This document shows, piece by piece, positions 37,947 to 43,606 of a stretch of DNA of 64,000 nucleotides. The stretch is from Frateuria terrea. GTDB lineage: Bacteria; Pseudomonadota; Gammaproteobacteria; Xanthomonadales; Rhodanobacteraceae. Both the position numbers and the translations under genes were made by a program. Below the pieces are notes generated by a model. That model searched no databases and was not told the DNA's origin. It saw only the letters and a program-made list of their open reading frames with translations. The first letter of the stretch is position 1, and each line of letters starts with the position of its first letter. The DNA lies in the NCBI RefSeq assembly GCF_900115705.1, contig NZ_FOXL01000006.1:62001-126000 (forward strand), written 5' to 3'.

Positions 37947-39113
37947 ATGTCCCCGCACGTGGCGCAGGTCAGCTTCCTGCCGGCGCCGGCCGGACTCAGC
38001 GGTGCCCAGGTGCTGGAGCGCTGGCCCTCGCTGGCCGACATCGCCGAGGCGGCGGCCAGCGCCGGCACGCGCATCACGGTGGTGCAGGCCGCTGCACACG
38101 CCGAGGGACTGACCCGCAACGGGGTCGACTACCTCTTCGTCGACGTGCGCGGCATGCGCCGCCGCGAACGCGGCCGGCACGTCGGCGACCTGCTCGGCAC
38201 GCTCGGGGTGGACCTGGCGCACGTGCACGGCCTGGGCTTTCCCGAGGAGTCGTTCGCCCTGTCGCAACGCCTGCCGCGGCTGCCGGTGCTGTTCCAGGAC
38301 CACGCCGACCGCGCGCCACGGCGCTGGTGGCGGCGTTGGCAATGGCGTCATCGCTACCGCGAACTCAAGGGCGTCGCGTTCACCGCGCCGGAGCTGGCCT
38401 GGCCGTTCGCCGCCGCCGGCGTGCTGCAGCCATCGACGCGGCTGTTCGCGATCCCCGAATCCAGCAGCCGCTTCCAGCGGGGCGACCGCGCGCGGGCGCG
38501 CATCGAGACCGGCCTGCATGGGCACCCCGCGGTGCTGTGGGTGGGCCATCTGCAGGACGGCAAGGACCCACTCACTGCGCTCGACGGCATCGCGCTGGCC
38601 GCGCAGCGCCTGCCCGGCCTGCAGCTGTGGTGCGCCTACGGCCGCGCACCGATGATGGCCAGGCTGCGCGCGCGCATCGAGCGCGACCCGTGGCTTGCCG
38701 GTCGCGTGCACCTGCTGGGCCAGGTCCCGCACGCGCGTATCGAGACGCTGATGCAGGCGGCCGACCTGTTCGTCTCGGCCAGCCGCCGCGAAGGTAGCGG
38801 CTATTCCGCCATAGAAGCGATCGCCTGCGGCACCGTGCCGGTGCTCACCGACATCCCGGCCTTCCGCGCCCTCGCCGGCGATGCGCGGATCGGCCGCCTA
38901 TGGCCCTGCGGCGACGCCCGCGCGCTGGCCGATGCGCTGGTCGCCGCCACGCTCGAGCAGATGCCGGCCGAACAGGTGCGCGCGCACTTCGACGCCACGC
39001 TGTCGTTCACCGCGGTCGGCGGCCGCTGGCGCGAGGCCTACCTGCAACTGCTGCAGGGCCGCGGCGATGCCTACGCGCAGGCGCTCGCCAGCCGGCCCGG
39101 GAGCCTGGCGTGA
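37947..39113 (+). CDS. Family 4 glycosyltransferase
   Basis: GT-B fold transferase of 388 residues. The C-terminal nucleotide-sugar domain has LWVGHLQDGKDPLTALDGI, then the E(x7)E-type region SASRREGSGYSAIEAIACG (about 275-293). The N-terminal acceptor domain is diverged and lacks the common glycine-rich start, having instead VSFLPAPAGLSGAQV. Its stop overlaps the next start (GTGA). Donor and acceptor unknown. Confidence 0.85.
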   Translation: MSPHVAQVSFLPAPAGLSGAQVLERWPSLADIAEAAASAGTRITVVQAAAHAEGLTRNGVDYLFVDVRGMRRRERGRHVGDLLGTLGVDLAHVHGLGFPEESFALSQRLPRLPVLFQDHADRAPRRWWRRWQWRHRYRELKGVAFTAPELAWPFAAAGVLQPSTRLFAIPESSSRFQRGDRARARIETGLHGHPAVLWVGHLQDGKDPLTALDGIALAAQRLPGLQLWCAYGRAPMMARLRARIERDPWLAGRVHLLGQVPHARIETLMQAADLFVSASRREGSGYSAIEAIACGTVPVLTDIPAFRALAGDARIGRLWPCGDARALADALVAATLEQMPAEQVRAHFDATLSFTAVGGRWREAYLQLLQGRGDAYAQALASRPGSLA

Positions 39114-40237
39114 AACTCGCCCTCGTCGTACCCGGCGGCGTCGACCGCGGCGGCGAACGCCGCGTCATTCCTGCCTTGCTGCACCTCATCGCACGGCTGG
39201 CGCAGTCGCACGAGGTACATGTCTTCGCGCTGCGCCAGGAAGCCCGACCCGCCTGCTGGCCCCTCGCCGGCGCCACCATCCACAACGTCGGCGACGGCGG
39301 GACGCGCCTGCGCGCGATCCGCGCCATCGCACTGGAAAACCGCCGCGCTCCGTTCGACCGCATCCACGCCATCTTCTCCGGGCCCTGCGGCCAGGTGGCC
39401 GTCGCCGCGGGCCTGTGGCTGCACTGCCCGACCCTGGTGCACATCGCCGGGGGCGAACTCGTCGCGCTGCGGGACATCCACTACGGCGGCCGCCAGAACT
39501 GGCGCGGCCGCCTGTGCGAAGCGCTGGTACTTCGCTGCGCCGACCAGGTGACCGCCGCCAGCGCGCCGATCATCGACACCCTGCACCACCTTGGCATCGA
39601 CGCCCAGCGCGTACCGCTCGGCGTCGACCTGGCGTCCTGGCCGCCACAACCACCGCGTCGGCGCGGACCGGGCCCGGCACGCCTGATCCATGTCGCCAGC
39701 CTCAACCGGGTCAAGGACCAGCCCACCCTGCTGCGCGCCCTCGCCGCGTTGCAGGAACGAGGCATCGACTACCGCATGGAGATCGTCGGGGTCGATACCC
39801 TCGGCGGCGAGATCCAGCGCCTCGCCACCACGCTCGGCCTCGACGGACGCGTCCATTTCCTCGGCTTCCGCACCCAGCACGAACTGCGCCCGCTCATGTA
39901 CGCCGCGCAGCTGCTGGTGATGTCCTCCCGCCACGAAGCCGGCCCGCTGGTGCTGCTGGAAGCCGCCGTCGCGGGCGTCCCCACCGTCGGCACTGCCGTC
40001 GGCCACCTCGCCGAATGGGCGCCCAACGCGGCACTCACCGTCCCGCCAGGGGACTGGACCGCACTGGCCGACGCCATCGAACACGTCCTCACCGACGAAG
40101 ACCTGCGCCTGCAACTGGCCTGGTCCGCCCAGCGCCGCGCCATGCGCGAAGATGCCGACCACACCGCCCGGGCGTTCGAAGCCCTGTACCTCTCGGTACG
40201 CGACGCACCGGCGTTGCCCGTCAGGCTTCGGCGCTAG
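39110..40237 (+). CDS. Family 4 glycosyltransferase
   Basis: GT-B fold transferase of 375 residues with the full family-4 pattern: N-terminal LALVVPGGVDRGGERRVIP, a central HVASLNRVKDQPTLLRAL hinge and the SSRHEAGPLVLLEAAVAGVP catalytic/nucleotide motif. It starts with GTG overlapping the previous stop. It is the last gene of its unit; integron-related sequence begins about 215 nt later. Confidence 0.9.
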   Translation: MKLALVVPGGVDRGGERRVIPALLHLIARLAQSHEVHVFALRQEARPACWPLAGATIHNVGDGGTRLRAIRAIALENRRAPFDRIHAIFSGPCGQVAVAAGLWLHCPTLVHIAGGELVALRDIHYGGRQNWRGRLCEALVLRCADQVTAASAPIIDTLHHLGIDAQRVPLGVDLASWPPQPPRRRGPGPARLIHVASLNRVKDQPTLLRALAALQERGIDYRMEIVGVDTLGGEIQRLATTLGLDGRVHFLGFRTQHELRPLMYAAQLLVMSSRHEAGPLVLLEAAVAGVPTVGTAVGHLAEWAPNAALTVPPGDWTALADAIEHVLTDEDLRLQLAWSAQRRAMREDADHTARAFEALYLSVRDAPALPVRLRR

Positions 40238-40452
40238 ACTGCAGGCAATGGACCCGGCCATACCGGCACCGCGTACACACCTCGCGTCACCGGGCAAATA
40301 ATCCGGCCGCGAAAAGACCGCCCGATTAGGCTGCAGGATTAGACTGCGCGCGCGGAGGTAAGCTGTTGTTTAAGGCAGCGCAAAGACCCAGGCAAGCGCG
40401 GAGCCACCTGGATAGGCTGCCGGATTAGACCCCATAATCGAACCTACTTTGA
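40238..40452. other. Left flank of the cassette array with long direct repeats
   Basis: No gene is seen. An 18-base direct repeat occurs twice with one mismatch: TAGGCTGCAGGATTAGAC at 40327-40344 and TAGGCTGCCGGATTAGAC at 40413-40430. A looser third match (TAGACTGCAGG) overlaps the end of the glycosyltransferase gene. The second repeat ends 22 bases before the GTTAGGC core. The arrangement could be a degenerate attI region. Confidence 0.4.
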
Positions 40453-40459
40453 GTTAGGC
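40453..40459 (+). other. Integron recombination core (left boundary of cassette 1)
   Basis: GTTAGGC matches the GTTRRRY core at which integron integrase joins cassettes. It lies 8 nt before the first cassette gene, the same arrangement as the R' cores at 40851-40857 and 41752-41758. No matching left half-site with attC folding is present upstream, so it may be an attI remnant. Confidence 0.6.
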
Positions 40460-40467
40460 AGCAAAGC

Positions 40468-40803
40468 ATGAATCGCTCAATCTCAGTGCAGGAGGCACAG
40501 ATTCTGGAGCGCGCGCTCGCGGTGGGCGCGACAGAGCGCATAGTTCCAGCGACTATTGCATCCATCAAAGACCTCCGCGTCACAGCCACTTGTAGATGTG
40601 GCTGCGCTACAGTTTGGTTTGGTCCCAACGGTGACTCTGCCAACGGCCGTAGGCTGGCCGATGCGCGCGCCACGTCACATGGTCAAGACGTAGACGTTCT
40701 AGTCTGGGCAATCGATGACACAATCGTGGGCTTAGAGTTTGTAGGTGCTCATCCAACTGCGCTGCCAGATCCTGAGTCTGTGCGCGGCTACGGAGATGCC
40801 TAA
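40468..40803 (+). CDS. Integron cassette 1: unknown protein with Cys cluster
   Basis: 111 residues, no signal peptide or membrane segment. A CxCxC group (Cys42, Cys44, Cys46, in TATCRCGCATVWF) suggests metal binding. The rest is a mixed alpha/beta composition ending VLVWAIDDTIVGLEFVGAHP. Codon use is less G+C-biased than in flanking genes. The stop codon is inside the attC left core, the compact layout typical of cassettes. No family recognised. Confidence 0.75.
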   Translation: MNRSISVQEAQILERALAVGATERIVPATIASIKDLRVTATCRCGCATVWFGPNGDSANGRRLADARATSHGQDVDVLVWAIDDTIVGLEFVGAHPTALPDPESVRGYGDA

Positions 40804-40857
40804 CATCTCGTTCAAGGCGGACGCGCTGGCGCGCGCCGCTTAACTCCAGCGTTAGGC
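40798..40857 (+). other. attC site 1
   Basis: R'' GCCTAAC (40798-40804) and R' GTTAGGC (40851-40857) are exact complements 60 bp end to end. The inner AAGGCGG (40814-40820) and CCGCTT (40837-40842) pair with one extrahelical G on the L'' side, as expected for a folded attC bottom strand. Confidence 0.9.
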
Positions 40858-40864
40858 CGCTAAC

Positions 40865-41704
40865 GTGATTTCGAGGCTCGTGATGGATTGGTTCCCGGCA
40901 ATCTCAACTAGCACGCTCTTACTTGTTGTCGCTTGGCTGAGCCGCAATCTGATTGCCACTCGGCTAACGCGAAGCGTTCAACATGAATTCGACGAGAAAA
41001 TCGGCAAGCTCCGCTCAGACCTGCGAAAGAGCGAAGACGAGTTTCGTTCGGCGCTCACCGCGCGCCAATCGGAAATCGACGCCCTACGTACCGGCGCTCT
41101 CTCAAACGTCCCGCAGAGGCAGGCCTTGCTTCTACAACGGCGCCTTGAAGCCATTGAGCAGCTCTGGACCTCGGCTGCTTCACTAAGCAAGACGAAGATT
41201 TTGGCGGGGTACCTCGCCGCCTTCAATGTAGAAGCGATGACTGAGGCCGTCAGAAAGCAAGAGCGCGCGGCTCAGGTGCTAGAAATGATTTCGTCGGGAT
41301 TTGATCCCAAGGAACTTGACCACATCAGTGCAACCAAGGCTCGTCCGTTCGTCTCTGCAATGGCTTGGGCAATATATGCAGCCATGCGAGCCGTGGCCGC
41401 TCATACAATGATCCGTTGGCAAGCCATGAAAAGCGGCATGGAAGCAAAAGGACTCATGGATGAGGAGAAGATAAAGCAGCTGATAAAGGCGGCACTTCCC
41501 CACTACTCAGATTACTTGGACACGCACGGCGGGGTGGTTTTCCATTACACGCTCGAGGCGCTAGAAACGCGCCTGTTGGAAGAGCTTGACCGCATGCTGG
41601 ACGGCTCCGAAGCCGATGCGGCGAGTGTTGCGCAAGCGGCAAAGATTGTGCGGCAAGCAAACGAAGTCATGAAGGCCAGCGCAGATTCGGCGGTCGCGGC
41701 CTAA
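40865..41704 (+). CDS. Integron cassette 2: membrane-anchored coiled-coil protein
   Basis: 279 residues (GTG start at 40865; ATG at 40883 would give 273). One N-terminal transmembrane helix (about 11-31) is followed by a charged coiled coil (about 33-75, QHEFDEKIGKLRSDLRKSED) and a long helical domain with a second hydrophobic patch (about 160-178). A cytoplasmic helical domain tied to the inner membrane is the likely form. No family is recognised. Such anchored proteins are frequent in cassette arrays and some cassettes are now known to act in phage defence, but nothing here proves that. Confidence 0.75.
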   Translation: MISRLVMDWFPAISTSTLLLVVAWLSRNLIATRLTRSVQHEFDEKIGKLRSDLRKSEDEFRSALTARQSEIDALRTGALSNVPQRQALLLQRRLEAIEQLWTSAASLSKTKILAGYLAAFNVEAMTEAVRKQERAAQVLEMISSGFDPKELDHISATKARPFVSAMAWAIYAAMRAVAAHTMIRWQAMKSGMEAKGLMDEEKIKQLIKAALPHYSDYLDTHGGVVFHYTLEALETRLLEELDRMLDGSEADAASVAQAAKIVRQANEVMKASADSAVAA

Positions 41705-41758
41705 CGATTCGTCCAAGCCGACGCCGCTTCGCGGCGCGGCTTAACTCAGGTGTTAGGC
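41699..41758 (+). other. attC site 2
   Basis: R'' GCCTAAC (41699-41705) and R' GTTAGGC (41752-41758) are perfect complements. AAGCCGACGCCGC (41715-41727) pairs with GCGGCGCGGCTT (41731-41742), leaving one extrahelical A, with a short TTC loop. Length 60 bp, equal to attC 1. The sequence is close to published Xanthomonas-type attC sites as I recall them. Confidence 0.95.
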
Positions 41759-41781
41759 CGCACAGGAAGCGAGACGCGTCG

Positions 41782-42162
41782 GTGAATGAAGAAAAGCCTC
41801 TTTCGTTGAGCGGTTCTTGCCACTGCGGAGCCATCCGCCTCAGTCTGCCGGCGGCGCCCGAAACCGCCACGAGTTGCAACTGCTCCTTGTGCCGGCGCAC
41901 GGGAGGCATCTGGGCTTACTACGAACTCGGTAGCGTCTCTATCCAAGGCCATCCGGAGAACACGGAGAGCTACGTGTGGGGTGATCGCAGCCTGAGCAAT
42001 TTCCGCTGCAAGACCTGCGGCATTGCCACGCATTGGGAGCCCATAAGACCCGAGCCCGGCGCTCGCCACGGCGTGAACCTCCGCAACTTTGAGCCGGCGC
42101 TGGTAGCCGCAGTCCCTGCCCGGCGGTTTGATGGCGCAGATACGTGGGAGTTCCTGGATTGA
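41782..42162 (+). CDS. Integron cassette 3: GFA-family (Mss4-like) protein
   Basis: 126 residues of the glutathione-dependent formaldehyde-activating enzyme fold. Zinc-binding cysteines are visible: CxC at Cys13/Cys15 (GSCHCGAIRLSL), Cys32/Cys34/Cys37 (TSCNCSLC) and CKTC (in FRCKTCGIATHW). GFA-like proteins are frequent integron cassette cargo and the formaldehyde role is doubtful for most of them. It starts with GTG at 41782, 24 nt after the attC 2 core. The stop lies 25 nt before the remnant of attC 3. Confidence 0.9.
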   Translation: MNEEKPLSLSGSCHCGAIRLSLPAAPETATSCNCSLCRRTGGIWAYYELGSVSIQGHPENTESYVWGDRSLSNFRCKTCGIATHWEPIRPEPGARHGVNLRNFEPALVAAVPARRFDGADTWEFLD

Positions 42163-42187
42163 ACCCGTCCGGCTTCTCGCAGGTGGC

Positions 42188-42224
42188 GCCTAACAATTCC
42201 GTAGAAGGCTCCGGGGTAGTTCCC
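42188..42224 (+). other. Truncated attC site 3
   Basis: The left core GCCTAAC (42188-42194) and an AATTC spacer like those of attC 1 and 2 are present, followed by AAGGCTCCGG. No GTTRRRY right core occurs in the expected 50-70 bases. The 3' half seems lost. Confidence 0.6.
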
Positions 42225-42228
42225 ACGG

Positions 42229-42300
42229 TTTGGTGGACACCTGATGTAACTTTTCAGGATCGCCCCATGCCCAAGCCAGGCCCAAGAACGACCGCTCGCT
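42229..42300 (+). mobile_element. Possible IS3-family 5' end remnant
   Basis: TTGGTGGACACCTGATG (42229 on) looks like an IS3-type terminal repeat. About 20 bases later an ATG at 42267 opens MPKPGPRTT, a start I associate with some IS3-family transposase OrfA proteins, but similarity stops after about nine residues. If true, insertion of this element explains the loss of the attC 3 right half. Weak evidence from memory of the motif only. Confidence 0.3.
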
Positions 42301-42339
42301 CGGCTCGCATCCACTTGCCGGTCTCCCGCGAGCCCCGGC

Positions 42340-42381
42340 CACTCACCCAAACCCTCGCCCCGGAGGGAGCGGGCTCTTTAC
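42340..42381. repeat. Degenerate family-A palindromic repeat
   Basis: CACTCACCCAAACCCTCGCC with a CCCTC/GAGGG stem (42352-42356 with 42363-42367), the reverse orientation of other copies. It abuts the 3' end of the nucleotidyltransferase gene and closes the cassette region. Confidence 0.5.
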
Positions 42382-42382
42382 C

Positions 42383-43606
42383 CTAAGGCGTCGAGGCTTG
42401 CGCCAGAGCCGCGCGCACCACGTACAAGGTGTCCATCCTCGGCACCGGCCGCGTGAGCCAGGCCAGGACGCGCCGGCGTTGCGGCGAGGTCACCCAGCTC
42501 TGCCCCTGCAGCCACAGTTGAGTGCGCACCATGTCGGCACGTTCGCGGCGCGCCTCGTCGGTGGGGCGCAGGCGGTTGTGCAGGTAGTGCATGGCCTCCC
42601 CGGGCGAGCGGCACCATTCGATGCCGGCCAGCCCGTGCAGCCAGAGATCCGAACAGGAGACCGCGCTCAGCGTCCAGCGACGCGAAAGCGTCCGCAGCAG
42701 CGGCGGACATTCCTGCTCCAGCCGGGCGAGCACGGCATCGGGTACCGCGTGGCGGTAGTAGCGAGCCACCAGGCACAGCGGCGGCAGCGCCCACCACGAC
42801 GATCCACCGGCGAGGACATCGCACAGCACGTTCCAGTCGCGCCGGGTCAGCCGCGTGGCCAGCAGCGAGATGTCGTTGAGGTGCAGCAGGCGCAGGCTGC
42901 GACCGCACACATTGCCGGCCGCGTGCAGCAGCAGGTGGCCCATCAGCGCCGCGTGCGAGGGATAGGCGTTGAGGCCCGGTTGCGCGTCGTGCGGATACAC
43001 CATCGCGCTGAGCTCGACGGTGGCCAGCGGCAGGCGCTCGTGGATGTGCGTGTGCAGCTCGATGTTGACCGGCGTGTCGCGGTGCTCGCCCAGTGCATGC
43101 ACCGGCGCTGCGCAGGCCGGCTTGAACACCTGGTGTTTCCACTGCGCGAAGGAGGCCTCGTAGCCAAGCTCGTGCAGCAGGCTTGCCGCACGACGGGCAT
43201 CGCCCGGATGCACCAGCAAGTCGATGTCGGCCATCGGGCGCTCGCCGGGCGCGTAAAGGCCGAGCGCATGCAGCGCCGCGCCCTTGAGCGGCACCAGCGC
43301 CACGCCGGCGTCGCGTGCGGTGGCGTCCAGGCGACACAGCAGATCCACGATGCGCTGGTGCCGCTGCTCGACGTGCTCGCGCTGGCTGGCCAGGAAGTGC
43401 CGCCAGTCCGCGTGCTGCCAGCCGGGGCTGCGGTCGAGCAGCGGCGAGACGCCGTGCGCGGCGGCGGCGGCCATGGCCAGACGCCATTCCAGCGGGCTCC
43501 AGTCGGGCGTCACGCCGCCGGGGCGCGCCAGCTCGGCGGCGAGCGCTTCGGTGGCCCGGCGCAGGCCGGCGCGCACGGTGCGCAACGGTGGCAGGGGGTC
43601 AGGCAT
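42383..43606 (-). CDS. Nucleotidyltransferase-fold protein (PF14907-like)
   Basis: 407 residues of the uncharacterised nucleotidyltransferase family. The strand GVALVPLKGAALHALGLY and the metal-binding ERPMADIDLLVHPGDARRAA (DxD) lie near residues 100-137; a long helical C-terminal domain follows. Members are accessory enzymes in peptide or polysaccharide maturation clusters, sometimes beside HPr-kinase-like proteins, and are presumed to transfer a nucleotide or sugar. Its start overlaps the radical SAM stop by 8 nt, so the two are one operon. Confidence 0.82.
   Translation of the reverse strand: MPDPLPPLRTVRAGLRRATEALAAELARPGGVTPDWSPLEWRLAMAAAAAHGVSPLLDRSPGWQHADWRHFLASQREHVEQRHQRIVDLLCRLDATARDAGVALVPLKGAALHALGLYAPGERPMADIDLLVHPGDARRAASLLHELGYEASFAQWKHQVFKPACAAPVHALGEHRDTPVNIELHTHIHERLPLATVELSAMVYPHDAQPGLNAYPSHAALMGHLLLHAAGNVCGRSLRLLHLNDISLLATRLTRRDWNVLCDVLAGGSSWWALPPLCLVARYYRHAVPDAVLARLEQECPPLLRTLSRRWTLSAVSCSDLWLHGLAGIEWCRSPGEAMHYLHNRLRPTDEARRERADMVRTQLWLQGQSWVTSPQRRRVLAWLTRPVPRMDTLYVVRAALAQASTP

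Follow-up and report, generated by a model that had tools for sequence, protein, structure and literature searches.

The window analysed here is a 64,000-nucleotide stretch of the Frateuria terrea genome (G000), located on contig C12. It contains an insert of about 2 kb and lower G+C content, flanked by a glycosyltransferase gene that ends at 40237 and by an NTP_transf_5 family gene (42383-43606). The glycosyltransferase gene (family 4, Pfam Glycos_transf_1; 38900-40237, plus strand) is the final gene of a polysaccharide operon before the array and is 79% identical to its ortholog in G002, a sister species. The gene on the right (minus strand, Pfam PF14907) is also kept in G002. The cassettes have a G+C content of 56-63%, against 70% for the window, and are carried on the plus strand. 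Cassette 1 (40454-40851) spans the interval between the crossovers of attI and attC1. Its ORF (40468-40803) encodes a 111-residue protein of no known family, with a relative (37%) adjoining attC sites in G035. Cassette 2 (40852-41752) contains an ORF (40865-41704) for a 279-residue protein in which, as judged by eye, an N-terminal membrane anchor and a coiled coil are apparent. The third ORF (41782-42162) encodes a 126-residue GFA-type zinc protein (PF04828, E 2e-10). PADLOC and NCBIfam searches with the three proteins returned nothing useful. As the original prediction stated, the genes stop in or just before recombination sites: ORF 1 inside attC1, ORF 2 inside attC2 and ORF 3 25 nt 5' of the third site. 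Further to the right, region 42215-42290 shows GGTTTGGTGGACACCTGATGTAACTTTTCAGG followed by ATGCCCAAGCCAGG and looks like the terminus of a further insertion sequence, one whose ORF is truncated. Region 42324-42376 is a dispersed intergenic repeat (CCCTCACCC...CCGGAGGGAG type) present in tens of copies per genome in the genus, one of which lies directly beside the resident intI (C8:136545-136596). This repeat dominated the matches of a DNA search with the right flank.

Two intact attC sites of 60 nt are found on the plus strand, attC1 (GCCTAAC...GTTAGGC, 40798-40857) and attC2 (41699-41758). They were scored with R1, an attC covariance model for which 17 sites from related integrons and no site of the window were used. 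The scores are 67.8 bits for attC1 and 59.5 bits for attC2 (E 8e-18 and 3e-15; E-values from R1 and from the R2 and R3 models introduced below are rough). The two sites are also the only exact CCTAAC-N36..66-GTTAGG pairs in the 3.84-Mb genome, where the reversed-pattern control gave zero matches. Both strands of both sites fold into the attC hairpin (z -2.2 to -4.3; -3.9 for attC2). The two predicted sites are thus real. An Rfam scan of the array region gave no match to an attC family and one chance hit.

It had also been proposed that each gene is followed by an integron-type recombination site, two of these sites being complete. The third site is a truncated attC (42188-42214, plus strand). 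It starts with GCCTAAC at 42188, is broken off after about 12 nt (GCCTAACAATTCC) and runs into an IS1111-like terminus (GTAGAAGGCTCC). Its end resembles IS110-family ends in an attC of contig C8 as well as the array ends at two loci of other genomes, L133 and L156. After comparison of both ends of the C8 element (terminal GTAA..AGACTTCC), we rejected the idea of an array terminus common to C8, L133 and L156; interruption of the site by an IS1111-like insertion is more likely. The IS110-family element of C8 is located within an attC of the resident array (L006:11475-12985, transposase L006:11823-12902). A remnant of the end of such an element is also found in an attC of an array on contig C5 (L110:4800-5000). 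The element and the end pieces found in attC sites resemble the attC-targeting IS1111 group.

At the head of the array are an attI leader and an attI site, together 136 bp long and without intI (40324-40459, plus strand). Two attI types occur in the genus. The site scores 59.5 bits (E 2.4e-17) with R2, a sequence model of type A based on the attI sites that adjoin intI in four genomes, the window site being excluded; R3 models type B, native in G001. R2 gave no further credible match over the window. The attI core, GAACCTACTTTGAGTTAGGC (40440-40459), just before cassette 1, resembles the attI of C8, and the likeness continues back through the leader (local alignment score of 121.5 with the C8 leader; random window stretches reach 74 or less). 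The expected IntI crossover falls after G40453, as judged from an alignment with native and orphan attI sites. The GTTAGGC at 40453-40459 is the end of this attI site and not of an attC. No remnant of intI is detectable beside or upstream of it. As candidates for a cassette promoter Pc, two weak sigma-70-like matches lie in and before the leader; versus a mean of 0.7 in shuffles, they are hardly above chance. Type-A leaders (40324-40440 in the window) contain about four imperfect copies of GGATTAGGCTGC, retained in orphan sites too, which could possibly be accessory binding repeats for IntI or regulator boxes.

The genome (3.84 Mb, 16 contigs, 100% complete) encodes a single full-length intI. 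It is located on C8, beside mfd, and is intact (TIGR02249, 476 bits, model positions 1-314). The remaining matches to the integrase model are far under the cut-off and resemble ordinary tyrosine recombinases. Hence the term "integrase-less" is correct for the window, where no intI lies near the array, but not for the genome. The intI with attI sought elsewhere is on a different contig from the array and belongs to a resident integron with its own attI, cassettes and the IS110-family element mentioned above. Three type-A attI sites are present in the genome, on C8 (with intI), C12 (the window) and C5, and attC sites are found behind each. Within the genus, intI adjoins mfd in all five genomes having intI, which designates mfd as the native site. 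In the sixth genome, G004 (86% complete), no intI was found. The integron type at mfd varies: G001 has a type-B intI-attI (L055), and its counterparts in G000, G002, G003 and G005 are of type A (L006, L054, L056, L057), as though one platform had taken the place of another there. In the resident integron, the cassette at the first position (L006:10799-11185) encodes a Rap1a-type immunity protein (PF18602), possibly a defence against toxins of rival bacteria.

Both flanks of the array have syntenic counterparts in G002. At the same position, behind the same glycosyltransferase gene, G002 has a type-B attI (R3, E 1.5e-9) and two weak attC sites (16 bits each with R1). The corresponding region (L053:7400-9488) contains three different cassette-like genes, with degenerate attC sites and no Pfam matches, so that the same three genes are not fixed across the genus. 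In G004, the glycosyltransferase gene leads straight into an acyltransferase-like gene and the array is absent. Searches of the five other genomes of the genus did not find cassette 1 or cassette 2. A contig search with the glycosyltransferase returned distant MAGs only and did not show the locus elsewhere.

Dispersed attI sites are common in the family. Among 198 family genomes, R2 matches were obtained in at least 63 and R3 matches in at least 73, often several per genome, with intI usually single; the counts per genome are lower bounds, the best candidates of each genome having been scored. The R3 model is specific, matching one of 185 genomes of the class, the native attI of which is in the model. 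At 50 of the 58 attI sites inspected, no intI was detectable upstream, with at least 1.4 kb of upstream sequence available in nearly all 50 cases. An attC lies within 2 kb of 40 of these 50 sites, at a typical distance of about 400 nt. For instance, at least five intI-less type-B sites accompany a single intI in G107, and the same pattern is observed in the complete single-contig genomes G001, G066 and G028. Truncated intI genes are found in G066, G170 and G179, and the orphan sites L164-L166 retain a 5' part of intI. G197 has at least five intI-less type-A sites and one intI (C2:1133219), of type B. Therefore, some orphan sites may be relics of a former integrase that are no longer active, and not every one of them need act now. 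The original prediction had also stressed the location of the array between units containing B12-type radical SAM enzymes. This looks incidental, because other orphan attI arrays adjoin unrelated genes.

Several orphan loci are orthologous between species (L116/L141/L168, L118/L142/L145, L119/L123, L126/L169, L133/L156, L132/L155, L151/L153, L150/L152 and L112/L113). Their left flanks are 75-95% identical and, attC sites excepted, the cassettes behind attI differ; in some pairs the common right flank returns further along. In six pairs, homology runs through attI and ends 3-4 nt beyond the G of G|TTA, the expected IntI crossover. As the left junction is common to the orthologs, intI was already absent in their common ancestor and the cassettes changed later. 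The simplest agent of this turnover is presumably IntI made elsewhere, and homologous recombination between arrays could account for part of the cassette differences. By analogy, cassettes may also have turned over at the window locus; since G002 has a type-B attI at that position, turnover is known from other loci only.

Recent copies of attI segments give an indication of how orphan sites arise. In G034, the native segment made of the 5' part of intI and attI is about 97% identical to four other loci. The right edge of the copies is always the end of attI, and their left ends are 395, about 454, about 469 and 570 nt away. A 255-bp segment ending at attI is likewise common to two loci of G170 (96% identity). 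The variable left ends of the G034 copies led us to reject a precise mobile unit with a fixed left boundary. The site-specific right end, together with these varying left ends, suggests as a weaker hypothesis that IntI joins the right side and illegitimate repair the left one. The attI copies probably originate from an integron that already existed.

By the IntegronFinder definition (PMC9024848), a CALIN has at least two attC sites and no neighbouring intI, attI being no part of the definition. With attC1, attC2 and no intI nearby, the array is a CALIN. The original description as CALIN-like is right in that usual sense, but it overlooked the attI and leader. Of a complete integron, the array has the attI and lacks the intI beside it. 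It does not match an In0 (intI without cassettes), as it has cassettes and no intI. Our verdict is that the array, although a CALIN by definition, is a satellite integron headed by attI and not a decayed remnant. The cluster consists of attI, leader and cassettes without intI in cis and, from these comparisons, is likely to be served in trans by the IntI of C8. The sole IntI of the strain, produced from the resident integron beside mfd, would most likely act on the window attI in trans. As happens in ordinary integrons, attI x attC recombination would insert circular cassettes there and attC x attC recombination would excise them. We infer that this IntI can recombine the window attI today, and the window leader would drive cassette expression.

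The standard reading of a CALIN is that of a decayed full integron, in which intI was deleted on the spot, leaving a passive remnant. Homology of the window leader with the intI-attI leader does make an intI-attI unit the ultimate source, and both the truncated third attC and the piece of intI kept at L164-L166 are consistent with decay. However, nothing of intI is detectable beside the window attI, and the attI and two attC sites are intact. Moreover, the orthologous orphan loci already lacked intI ancestrally and changed cassettes afterwards, and the several attI sites of one-intI genomes would require many full integrons all losing intI. Decay is therefore an unlikely explanation. An ordinary CALIN could also result if cassettes were inserted off target, at a chromosomal site resembling attG. 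Such IntI insertions are known (cited in a Xanthomonas study, PMC12444791), and arrays without intI can arise in this way. Nevertheless, such an event would leave no attI leader on the left, and with the 136-bp leader present here we regard this origin as very improbable.

It is hardly credible that the array was torn from the resident integron by genome rearrangement or assembly error. The assembly is indeed a draft of 16 contigs, but the array is situated some 100 kb into a contig of 395 kb, the resident integron retains its own attI and cassettes, the flanks are syntenic in G002, and complete single-contig genomes show the same pattern. The satellite integron may tentatively be extended to a distributed integron, which we hold to be possible but somewhat more doubtful than an even bet. 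In this family, one IntI would serve several attI-headed arrays around the chromosome and would itself seed new heads, by linking cassettes at other places to the crossover end of an existing intI-5'-attI segment, with ordinary break repair joining the left side. In that case, the CALINs of such bacteria would be active satellites and not debris.

Integrons are usually pictured with one intI, one attI and one array, and CALINs as debris or as off-target insertions. Should the arrays of this family have an attI of their own, a single integrase can operate several insertion points independently of one another. Each of these points would be near its own leader, so that each would have a first-position cassette. 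Survey counts of complete and degraded integrons would need redoing with lineage-specific attI models. The specificity between attI and IntI would become directly testable, with several natural attI variants and one IntI per genome. The presence of attI might also simply explain the conserved CALIN positions reported for Xanthomonas (PMC12444791).

The array resembles CALINs in having two attC sites and no neighbouring intI, and CALINs are thought to be mobilisable in trans (PMC9024848). It differs from them by the intact attI with leader at its head. In Xanthomonas (PMC12444791), CALINs occur in roughly half of the genomes, at a small number of conserved loci whose positions the authors contrast with scattered attG insertion; intI is beside ilvD there, as compared with mfd here. 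The bacteria are likely related, and the accessible text reports no attI at these CALINs. Our search of the open-access literature found no description of orphan, multiple, additional or secondary attI sites, or of attI-headed satellite arrays. With sedentary chromosomal integrons (intI, Pc, attI and cassettes), the array shares attI, cassettes and the attC type of the genus residents, but it has no intI in cis. In the delta-attI-type gene cassettes of mobile integrons (PMC12901181), a displaced attI is still recombined by IntI1. In such a cassette, which is part of an array, a partial attI stands in place of the attC, whereas the window array is a separate one, lies elsewhere in the chromosome and has a full attI at its head.
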